A DNA stretch of 57,514 nucleotides, from positions 1-57,514 of the forward strand of contig JADFYO010000017.1 of NCBI GenBank assembly GCA_015233015.1, given 5' to 3'. Source of the stretch: Nitrospirota bacterium (GTDB lineage: Bacteria > Nitrospirota > Thermodesulfovibrionia > Thermodesulfovibrionales > Magnetobacteriaceae). A program made the translations under genes and the position numbers. This document shows positions 28,251 through 57,514 of the stretch, piece by piece; within the stretch, counting starts at the first letter, position 1; the number at the start of each line of letters is the position of its first letter. The notes under the pieces were generated by a model. The model was not told the origin of the DNA. It saw only the letters and a list, made by a program, of their open reading frames with translations, and did no database searches.

Positions 28251-28290
28251 AGTGGGCAGCCTTAATTCACCATCAAAGAAAAGAAGGAAC

Positions 28291-28358
28291 CCTCGTTGTT
28301 ACCCGTGGAAACGGGATGTTAGAATAAGTCGCAAGACAAAAAACTAACACCAACGAGG
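28291..28358 (+). ncRNA. Structured RNA leader element, copy 1
   Basis: P1 pairs CCTCGTTG (28291-28298) with CAACGAGG (28351-28358). Inside it, CCCGT-GGAA-ACGGG (28302-28315) is a hairpin with a GNRA loop, TGTTAG (28317-28322) pairs with CTAACA (28344-28349), and GTC-GCAA-GAC (28328-28337) caps that arm with another GNRA loop. The GAGG of P1 is the likely Shine-Dalgarno for the ATG at 28366, so P1 would hide it. A second copy at 57418-57486 keeps every stem. The conserved block also includes the 5-prime flank ATTCACCATCAAA from 28265. Confidence 0.75.
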
Positions 28359-28365
28359 TGAAACT

Positions 28366-28410
28366 ATGAGTAAAAATAATCCTGTTAATAGAATCATCCT
28401 GAGCCTATAG
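28366..28410 (+). pseudogene. Truncated ORF behind the RNA element
   Basis: After GAGGTGAAACT the frame reads MSKNNPVN and then runs into the dispersed repeat at 28391, stopping after 14 codons. The repeat seems to have replaced the gene that followed the RNA element in this copy. Confidence 0.5.
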
Positions 28411-28496
28411 AATCATCCTGAGCCTGTCGAAGGATTTCCGATTTATGGAGAAATGAGACTTAAAGGAGCATCCTTCGACAGGCTCAGGATGATTCA
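28391..28496. repeat. Dispersed repeats flanking in inverted orientation
   Basis: GAATCATCCTGAGCCT occurs twice at 28391-28425, continuing to GTCGAAGGATTTCCG. The inverted core CCTTCGACAGGCTCAGGATG lies at 28472-28491. Together they form a long imperfect palindrome related to the copy at 26591. Confidence 0.8.
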
Positions 28497-52335: not shown

Positions 52336-52694
52336 ACTGTAAAAAGCGAAAGGTGTCAGGTCTTGACATGTGCTATAATTCTGTACTGAATTGTACTTAA
52401 TCGTACAGTCTGCCTTTCAACAACCTCAACTGCTCATATCCCGCCGTGACGTCGCCATCCCGAAATTTCGTGTGCAACCGCACACCTCTTTCGTGCCAAT
52501 ATTTAACGGCTGGTATGTCTTCTCTCCTTCATAGCTGTAAAGGCTCTCCTTCTTCGATGTCTCTGATGTAGAAATGTCCGATTCTTTTCTTGACTTATCG
52601 CGGCTGAATAATTTATCATTCAGAGGCTAGGGCTGCCTTTTATAAGCGGCAAGGCTTTTAGTAAGTAAATAACTGTGAACAATAAGGAGTGAAT
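52336..52694. other. Intergenic region with a gene fragment
   Basis: No intact gene. The minus strand at 52397-52504 encodes VKYWHERGVRLHTKF and VTAGYEQLRLLKGRLYD before a stop, apparently the tail of a lost gene of unknown family. AGGTGTCAGGTCTTGACA at 52351 resembles ends of small mobile repeats. AAGGAG at 52684-52689 is the ribosome site of tpiA. Confidence 0.45.
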
Positions 52695-55893: not shown

Positions 55894-57393
55894 ATGAAAT
55901 TTAAGCGGCTGTTTTATCTTACCGGCGCAAAGTCAGGAGCGTTACGCAAAGGCACCTCTGTGGTGGACCCAAAGACAATAAAGGAATCGCTTGACGAATC
56001 GTCGTCATACAACCGAAAACAGCTTATTTTTTTTCTCCTGCTTCTTGCTTATGTTTTTACTGTTGCTGCTGCCACTACCGATATACAGCTCCTGCTTACC
56101 GACACCAGAAAGATAACCCTACCCTTCCTGAGCGCCGAAATACCTATCCTTTTCTTCTATAGATTTACGCCCATTATCATCTTCCTGTTTCATATTAATT
56201 TATTTATCAATCTCTATTTATATGCAAGGGAATATATTCCCTGGCTTGAAGATGAAAAGAATAAACCGTCATATTTAACTACTCTTTTCTTTAATTATTC
56301 TTTTATTAATAATAATGGAAAACTTGGATTTTCAGGGTATTTTCTACTTACTATAATACTATATTCTTTCTTACCATTTGTTACTCTTGCATGGATTACA
56401 TTAATGTTTTTACCTTATCGTAGTGAAGGACTTACACTATATCACGAGATTATAATTATATTAGACGCCTTAGTGTCAGCTATCTTTTTTTGGATAATAA
56501 ACAAATTATTATTACAGAAGCGGCAACCAGAAATATTACTCATTAATATTAACATACTAATTATTACAACATTATATTTCATATTTATATTATGTTTGTA
56601 TCCAATTAATCTATTTCCATATCAAAGAACAGAACATAGTTGGTTCGACAATAAAATATTTAACAGAAATCTTAAAGTAGCCAACAAAACCATCGTAGAA
56701 AAGGAAAGTCGCGACGCAAGTATTAACTATAATCTATCAAAAGGTACGAATAGAGAAGAAGCTTTGGCTAACTTATCCGAAAGACTTGACTTAAGAAAAA
56801 GGAACTTGAGTTATGCGGATTTCAGCAACTCTAAATTCATAAATGCCAATTTAGATAATGCAATCCTTACAGGGGCTTTATTAGATAATGCTACCTTTCA
56901 AAGGGCAAGTCTTCGATCTGCGAATTTAGATAATGCAAGCCTTAGAGATGTTTTATTAGATAATGCAAGCCTTCAAAAGGCAAGCCTTCAAGGAGCTGAT
57001 TTATATGGGGCAAGCCTTCAAGGGACTGATTTATCTTGGGCAAGCCTTCAAGGGGCTGATTTATGGAATGCAAAACTTCAAGGGGCTAATTTACTTGAGG
57101 CAAGTCTTCAAGGGGCTGATTTATCTTGGGCAAGCCTTCAAGGGGCTTCTTTATATGTAGCAAGCCTTCAAAGGGTTTCTTTACATGAGGCAACCCTTCA
57201 AGGCGCTTTTTTATATTGGGCAAACCTTCAAGGGGCTGATTTATCTAGAGCAAACCTTCAAGGAGCTGATTTATCTGGAGCGAACCTTCAAGGAGCTGAT
57301 TTATTTGCGGCAAACCTTCAAGGAGCTGATTTATTTGCGGCAAACCTTCAAGGAGCTTTTTTATATAGGGCAAATTTATATTGTACCCCCTGA
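55894..57393 (+). CDS. Membrane pentapeptide-repeat protein, copy 2
   Basis: A 499-residue paralogue of the 28604 gene. The membrane region (residues about 50-250) and the linker LDLRKRNLSYADF are alike. The pentapeptide run from residue about 300 to the end is longer, with about 20 almost identical 30-bp DNA units (GGGGCTGATTTA-CTTCAA). It lacks the charged C-terminal domain of copy 1, because the frame ends ANLYCTP directly at the conserved flank of the RNA element. This suggests the element truncated the gene. Confidence 0.88.
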   Translation: MKFKRLFYLTGAKSGALRKGTSVVDPKTIKESLDESSSYNRKQLIFFLLLLAYVFTVAAATTDIQLLLTDTRKITLPFLSAEIPILFFYRFTPIIIFLFHINLFINLYLYAREYIPWLEDEKNKPSYLTTLFFNYSFINNNGKLGFSGYFLLTIILYSFLPFVTLAWITLMFLPYRSEGLTLYHEIIIILDALVSAIFFWIINKLLLQKRQPEILLININILIITTLYFIFILCLYPINLFPYQRTEHSWFDNKIFNRNLKVANKTIVEKESRDASINYNLSKGTNREEALANLSERLDLRKRNLSYADFSNSKFINANLDNAILTGALLDNATFQRASLRSANLDNASLRDVLLDNASLQKASLQGADLYGASLQGTDLSWASLQGADLWNAKLQGANLLEASLQGADLSWASLQGASLYVASLQRVSLHEATLQGAFLYWANLQGADLSRANLQGADLSGANLQGADLFAANLQGADLFAANLQGAFLYRANLYCTP

Positions 57394-57417
57394 TTCACCA
57401 TCAAAAAAAGAAGGGAA

Positions 57418-57486
57418 CCTCGTTGTTACCCGTGGGAACGGGATGTTAGAATAAGTTTGTGGAACAAAAAACTAACACCAACGAGG
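57418..57486 (+). ncRNA. Structured RNA leader element, copy 2
   Basis: The same fold as 28291-28358: P1 CCTCGTTG/CAACGAGG, hairpin CCCGT-GGGA-ACGGG (GNRA loop changed from GGAA to GGGA), TGTTAG/CTAACA, and a cap GTT-TGTGG-AAC. The cap stem changed from GTC/GAC to GTT/AAC, a compensatory pair. GAGG of P1 is the likely Shine-Dalgarno of the ATG at 57497. Conserved flank ATTCACCATCAAA starts at 57393. Confidence 0.75.
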
Positions 57487-57496
57487 TGAATATATT

Positions 57497-57514
57497 ATGG
57501 CACAAGGGACGCTA
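57497..57514 (+). CDS. Start of ORF behind RNA element, cut by window end
   Basis: ATG with GAGGTGAA 9 bases upstream. The first residues are MAQGTL. Nothing more can be read. It is the intact counterpart of the truncated frame at 28366. Confidence 0.5.

Follow-up and report, generated by a model that had tools for sequence, protein, structure and literature searches.

A structured leader RNA with an embedded putative promoter in front of an IS1380-family transposase gene in a Nitrospirota bacterium

The transposase genes of IS10 and IS50 are reportedly shielded by a fold-back, described in the 1980s by the groups of Kleckner and Reznikoff, in which upstream sequences pair with the ribosome-binding region and hide it only in RNA that comes from outside. 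In ISPpu9, transposase translation depends on the structure of the 5' untranslated region (UTR) and on two small RNAs (PMC8450116). We analyzed a stretch of 57,514 nucleotides (nt) from a Nitrospirota bacterium (GenBank assembly GCA_015233015.1, contig JADFYO010000017.1; the whole stretch is called the window below), in which a preliminary description had noticed two copies of a structured RNA whose outer stem hides a Shine-Dalgarno (SD) sequence and had taken it for either a cis-regulatory RNA or the RNA component of a mobile element. Both copies are the left end and 5' leader of an insertion sequence of the IS1380 family, and the RNA is both things at once, a cis-acting leader of the transposase gene and part of a mobile element. 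Our literature search, with ISfinder and most subscription literature outside it, found nothing on leader folding or on insertion upstream of promoters in IS1380 elements; by analogy and on computed folds, the leader may work like the fold-back protection of IS10 and IS50, in a family for which we found no such description.

As in IS10 and IS50, sequence upstream of the element's own putative start is predicted to pair with the ribosome-binding region. Unlike those elements, which encode IS4-type transposases, the one studied here belongs to IS1380, and its leader is a predicted three-way junction, the promoter spacer being occupied by a separate hairpin that covaries. Furthermore, its putative promoter boxes lie in the stem strands, and the leader is conserved across phyla and can be found with a covariance model. 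We consider it likely that the left end of the element carries a leader proof against read-through, with the promoter inside the fold.

Both copies were recovered where they had been described, by sequence and by a covariance model that matched only 28287-28374 and 57414-57502 in the whole window. What had been called a duplication is an insertion sequence present in many copies, and no transposase follows copy 1, whose ATG (28366) opens only a 14-codon frame. With copy 2 as a query against its own genome, we obtained 20 places, comprising 14 identical left ends (copy 2 included), 4 diverged ones, 1 fragment, and copy 1. Nearly all contigs with identical left ends begin or end 122 to 127 bases into the repeat (C64 is the exception, running about 330 bases further), as is typical of a multicopy repeat at which the assembler stops. 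Contig ends elsewhere carry right ends, about as numerous as the left ones; the left-end copies and right-end matches together indicate that the window ends inside the insertion sequence.

Target duplications of IS1380-family elements are 4 to 5 bp long. Duplications of this length paired 12 of the 14 left ends with a right-end contig, two of these 12 leading to the same contig. The copy on contig C27 (L021:913-2387) is assembled end to end and internally deleted; its ends read CCTTGATTCACC... and ...GGTGGATTTGGG, with terminal repeats CCTTGATTCACCATCAAA and TTTGATGGTGGATTTGGG and TTTGT on either side. Directly behind its leader is a transposase gene whose product starts MAQ and matches PF13701 and the NCBIfam IS1380 model NF033539, over the cut-off of the former and under that of the latter (168.7). 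The close, full-length relative P0001 is over both cut-offs (NF033539, 213 bits, cut-off 180; PF13701, 124 bits, cut-off 34.7). These matches place the enzyme among the DDE transposases of the IS1380 family. The C27 copy also has the terminal inverted repeats and the short target duplication of that family, the latter being seen for the 12 paired left ends as well, and the gene after 57497, which the preliminary description had left to be read, is the start of such a transposase. A search of phages for a related transposase found none. Among other copies, a diverged one on contig C139 (L022) is split by an insertion with TnpB-like and TnpA-type (Y1) transposase-like genes, and in L113 (about 92-115) and L115 (about 111-130) a right end meets a left end 4 to 5 bases away, as in tandem copies or a circle junction.

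RNAfold gave both copies the fold that had been described, an outer stem, a hairpin, and a second arm, with z scores of -3.7 and -2.6 against dinucleotide shuffles. Further copies with covariation, which the preliminary description had sought, were found as well. We aligned 34 leaders (plain MAFFT alignment; the leader counts below refer to this set) and scored a named structure composed of a 9-bp outer stem, hairpin 1, and a six-pair second arm. Standard pairs filled 91.6% of the cells versus 83.4% in partner-shuffled alignments, and changes on both sides of a pair numbered 70 versus 25, counts that are inflated by the relatedness of the leaders, so that independent evidence is needed. None of 500 shuffles reached the observed pairing and both-side changes, and structures slid along the alignment were 22 to 52% paired. 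All six pairs of the hairpin 1 helix covary (CCCGT/ACGGG, CCTGT/ACAGG, and CTTGA/TCAAG), the second arm switches between TGTTAG/CTAACA and TGATAG/CTATCA, and the outer stem shows U-A to C-G exchanges in two leaders. The second arm is paired in 86.8% of the cells yet unpaired in RNAalifold's own consensus; the named structure was used throughout. Two finer details did not extend to the family: the hairpin described as GNRA capped has a GNRA loop in only 7 leaders, and its loop varies, so that a receptor or tetraloop motif conserved among the leaders was rejected; and the consensus fold lacks the small cap stem changing from GTC/GAC to GTT/AAC. It had also been conceded that the RNA might turn out to be a transposon segment with no conserved stem; it is a transposon segment, but the stem is conserved.

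The leader RNA is conserved across several phyla and lies outside Rfam. The transposase relatives, mostly 53 to 65% identical, come from genomes labeled Deltaproteobacteria, Desulfobacterales, Syntrophales, Acidobacteria, Nitrospirae, and others; more than 30 distinct homologues were found outside the own genome, and the same leader stands at almost every intact left end. Besides, the covariance model, used without protein information, had matches in 15 of 396 genomes, including L154 and L157, each immediately followed by an IS1380 transposase with only 25% and 23.5% identity, respectively, to the query; L157 is a rewritten form of the same layout (TTGCTG, 17 nt, TATAAA). Matches in G332, which looks like a distant relative (TGTTATAAT), and in G101, which looks like chance, fell in the E range of 2.6e-4 to 8.4e-4 and were not used as evidence. 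Rfam returned two tRNAs only for the window at gathering thresholds and nothing for leaders L098, L110, and L157 at E of ≤0.1; no curated model, of a riboswitch or otherwise, matched, and the class that the preliminary description could not name is likewise without a name there.

A putative sigma70-like promoter (TTGNNN, 16 to 18 nt, TAGAAT) can be read through the 5' strands of the stems. The TTG that ends the 5' strand of the outer stem stands 17 (25 leaders), 18 (8 leaders), or 16 (1 leader) bases before TAGAAT, a spacing kept constant despite 32 distinct spacer sequences. In the -10 box, 33 of the 34 leaders have T1, A2, and T6, though the last three bases of the box are unpaired, and TG precedes the box in 22 (TGnTAGAAT), the covarying base of the second arm being the free n. 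In sigma70 scoring, the box pair outscored every other plus-strand site of the leader in 28 of 34 cases and took first or second place in 31 of the 34 upstream regions. On this model, the promoter and the RNA acting against read-through would share the same bases.

The proposal that the outer stem hides an SD sequence was supported by computation, and the GAGG shortly before an ATG is present in both copies as described. Opening the SD was predicted to cost, on average, 8.8 kcal/mol when the leader was present, 4.6 after shuffling of its 5' part, 4.1 in the RNA with an internal start, and 3.8 when only the outer 5' arm was changed; for copy 2, the costs were 8.4 with the leader, 4.7 shuffled, and 3.9 with the internal start. 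Prediction and covariation agree that an upstream arm is able to pair with the SD in read-through RNA, and such hiding would be specific to that RNA because the putative promoter is embedded in the stems.

The reading is built on what was computed, namely, the conserved fold with compensatory changes, the position before the transposase gene, the box spacing, and the predicted rise in SD opening cost; from these we infer where transcription starts, how translation is affected, and what the leader is for. The -35 box would be the end of the 5' strand of the outer stem, hairpin 1 would fill the promoter spacer, and the -10 box would begin in the 5' strand of the second arm and extend into its loop. 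An RNA made from this promoter would start in that loop without both 5' strands and have a short A-rich leader and a freer SD, so that the transposase level would be set by the element's own promoter. RNA reading through from a neighboring gene would contain the whole leader, fold into the three-way junction, and hide the SD, in which case host transcription would not switch on transposition. In the window, a pentapeptide-repeat gene (55894-57393) runs into the element and is cut short, its stop TGA (57391-57393) lying inside the terminal repeat, and at least 8 of 15 left ends have a co-directional frame running in or ending ≤150 nt upstream. In a published survey, IS1380 was over-represented between co-oriented genes (PMC9208149).

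We also measured, in 28 diverse IS1380 members, the pairing between the SD and the stretch 38 to 115 nt upstream of the start against shuffles, the start codons being picked by SD score. An SD-complementary arm was detected at p<0.05 in 15 of the 28 (54%; the effective number is below 28, since some members are related, L173 and L062 being the same element), compared with 6% of 35 host genes of the window (Mann-Whitney p 0.0007) and 4% of 24 IS3 OrfA genes. The arm sequences differ among members (e.g., CCTCCTTT/AAAGGAGG, CCCCTCTT/AAGAGGGG, and ACGCCTCCGG/CCGGAGGCGT), and TATAAT-like boxes often lie between the two arms. These predictions suggest that SD-hiding leaders are common among IS1380 elements. 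ISEcp1 and IS1678 resemble the element studied here in transposase family, CC-ended terminal repeats, and 4- to 5-bp duplications, and IS1678 has an arm, whereas no description of a leader fold was found for either.

Several observations weigh against a read-through-proof leader. ISEcp1, the best-known IS1380 member, has no such arm in this analysis. In L017, L099, L107, and L108 (4 of the 34 leaders), the SD is closed no more than in shuffles, and in the internal-start RNA a weak local CACC/GGTG hairpin still lies over the SD, for which reason we rejected a fully free SD in that RNA. In the variant leaders L152, L153, and L154, the outer stem and its SD are kept, but hairpin 1 is missing and no clear promoter match is seen where the boxes usually lie. 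Single promoter scores are mostly not significant against shuffles; the promoter case comes from the constancy of the boxes across homologues, not from single scores.

The strong structure of the leader would also suit a brake or switch: the whole leader may be part of the transposase mRNA, made from a promoter at or beyond the terminal repeat and controlled by a small RNA, protein, temperature, or ligand, with ISPpu9 (PMC8450116) as the precedent for a structured 5' UTR that controls transposase translation, as is predicted here. We regard this as unlikely, since the boxes inside the fold are conserved while most leaders have no comparable site upstream, and the variable loops leave no conserved ligand pocket. 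Two small RNAs act in ISPpu9, whereas no strong minus-strand promoter from which an antisense RNA could start is conserved in the 34 leaders, so that antisense control was rejected; moreover, the internal-start RNA is predicted to lack the structure, a further difference from ISPpu9.

That the palindromes adjoin the terminal repeat of a DDE transposon raises the question of whether they are DNA features, such as transposase binding sites or cruciforms, kept for transposition and not as RNA. This is improbable in view of the G-U pairs in use (8 leaders at pair 14-30), the identity of the 3' strand with the SD of the gene, and the wholly changed sequence of hairpin 1 with its pairing kept, which a sequence-specific protein site would not permit; nor do we report a comparable fold for the right end. 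There is very little chance that the RNA guides the transposase in the manner of an IS110 bridge RNA or an omegaRNA: it is a structured RNA at one end of a mobile element, but its fold runs into the SD of the transposase gene, where it ends, and conserved guide-like loops are absent from the leaders. A bridge RNA was rejected because the adjoining enzyme is an IS1380 DDE transposase and not an IS110/IS1111-type DEDD recombinase, an omegaRNA of IscB or TnpB because the gene behind the leader is IS1380 and the only TnpB-like gene belongs to the insertion that splits one copy, and a group II intron because the neighboring gene is wrong.

The placement of the insertions, a computational result, is more surprising than the leader, as the elements appear to face host promoters. 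Right-end flanks were read for 17 insertions in the own genome (L207-L225). TTG occurs at flank offset 14 or 15 in 14 of them, so that 13 to 14 bp separate the right end from a -35 box downstream, and TTTAC stands at that offset in a further two. The mean -35 score was +3.8 at offset 14 and below -1.2 at all other offsets within the first 45, and a -10 box follows at normal spacing (z of 10.7 for the -35 and 7.1 for the -10 box against random positions). This pattern had been noticed before scoring; as an independent set, 17 relatives in other genomes and other phyla (L098-L139, L123, and L124) repeated it, with z of 7.2 and 7.7, respectively, and both boxes in 41% of the flanks versus 0.4% of random positions, offsets of 12 to 16 being allowed for cases and controls alike. 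By eye, the more distant copies G116, G077, and L181 have TTGAC 14 to 18 bases from one end, mostly the left. A same-strand frame of ≥80 codons starts ≤350 bases from the joint in 15 of 16 flanks (a count without a control), in two cases at the first base. Survival bias, by which only harmless insertions persist, could favor upstream regions but not one fixed offset.

About 9 bp separate the -35 box from the end of the 4- to 5-bp duplication upstream of it, and the -10 box, about 40 bp from the joint, is in place as well; because of the latter distance, we would sooner guess at a contact with bound RNA polymerase than at a transposase that reads the DNA directly. We see about an even chance that sigma70-type promoters are landing pads for this branch of the IS1380 family, probably through bound RNA polymerase or sigma and not by reading of DNA alone, which together with the leader would make a "good neighbour" element that enters beside active genes left unharmed and is silent under read-through. 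ISAjo2-related insertion sequences at dif/pdif sites (PMC10132070) likewise keep a fixed spacing and orientation relative to a short conserved motif, although the motif here is a sigma70-like promoter (-35 and -10) and not dif. In other IS1380 branches (left ends of L173-L176 and L206), CTAG or CTAA precedes the terminal repeat CCCGGATAATTCA, suggesting that these sit at CTAG-like sites under a different target rule.

Table 1. Parts of the two leader copies in the window
Feature	Position	Strand	Evidence or remark
Copy 2, left end of multicopy IS1380-family element, cut by contig end	57388..57514	+	14 identical left ends
Terminal inverted repeat CCCTGATTCACCATCAAA	57388..57405	+	Other contigs have right end TTTGATGGTGGATTTAGG; duplications of 4-5 bp
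Outer stem 5' strand ACCTCGTTG	57417..57425	+	Partner 57479-57487; 96.7% of cells paired in 34 leaders
Putative -35 box TTGTTA	57423..57428	+	18 nt before TAGAAT; TTG and 16-18 nt spacer conserved
Hairpin 1 CCCGT-GGGA-ACGGG, within putative promoter spacer	57429..57442	+	All 6 helix pairs covary
Second arm 5' strand TGTTAG	57444..57449	+	Partner 57472-57477; third pair exchanges T-A/A-T
Putative -10 box TAGAAT, preceded by TGT (extended -10)	57447..57452	+	T1, A2, T6 kept in 33/34 leaders
Expected transcription start of the element's own mRNA	57457..57461	+	6-8 nt after -10 box, from promoter position
Second arm 3' strand CTAACA	57472..57477	+	Covariation analysis
Outer stem 3' strand CAACGAGGT with SD GAGG (57483-57486)	57479..57487	+	SD opening cost
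Transposase gene start (MAQGTL...), IS1380 family, rest cut off by contig end	57497..57514	+	Same start in C27 and C139 copies; PF13701/NF033539
Copy 1, remnant left end and leader	28260..28368	+	Covariance model, 76.6 bits
Copy 1 outer stem 5' strand CCTCGTTG	28291..28298	+	Pairs with 28351-28358 (RNAfold)
Copy 1 outer stem 3' strand CAACGAGG with SD GAGG (28355-28358)	28351..28358	+	RNAfold

Elsewhere in the window, a short IS1380-type transposase remnant lies on the minus strand at 52412-52585 (52% identity over 54 residues, with an internal stop). Behind copy 1, at 28395-28495, an inverted repeat, GAATCATCCTGAGCCTGTCGAAGGAT/ATCCTTCGACAGGCTCAGGATGATTC, with its halves about 40 bases apart, is a separate mobile-looking repeat.

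With this leader, the transposon family gains a conserved RNA that can be searched for. The promoter-facing placement, if confirmed, would be a bacterial counterpart of transposons homing to the transcription machinery and would explain how such insertions accumulate with little harm.
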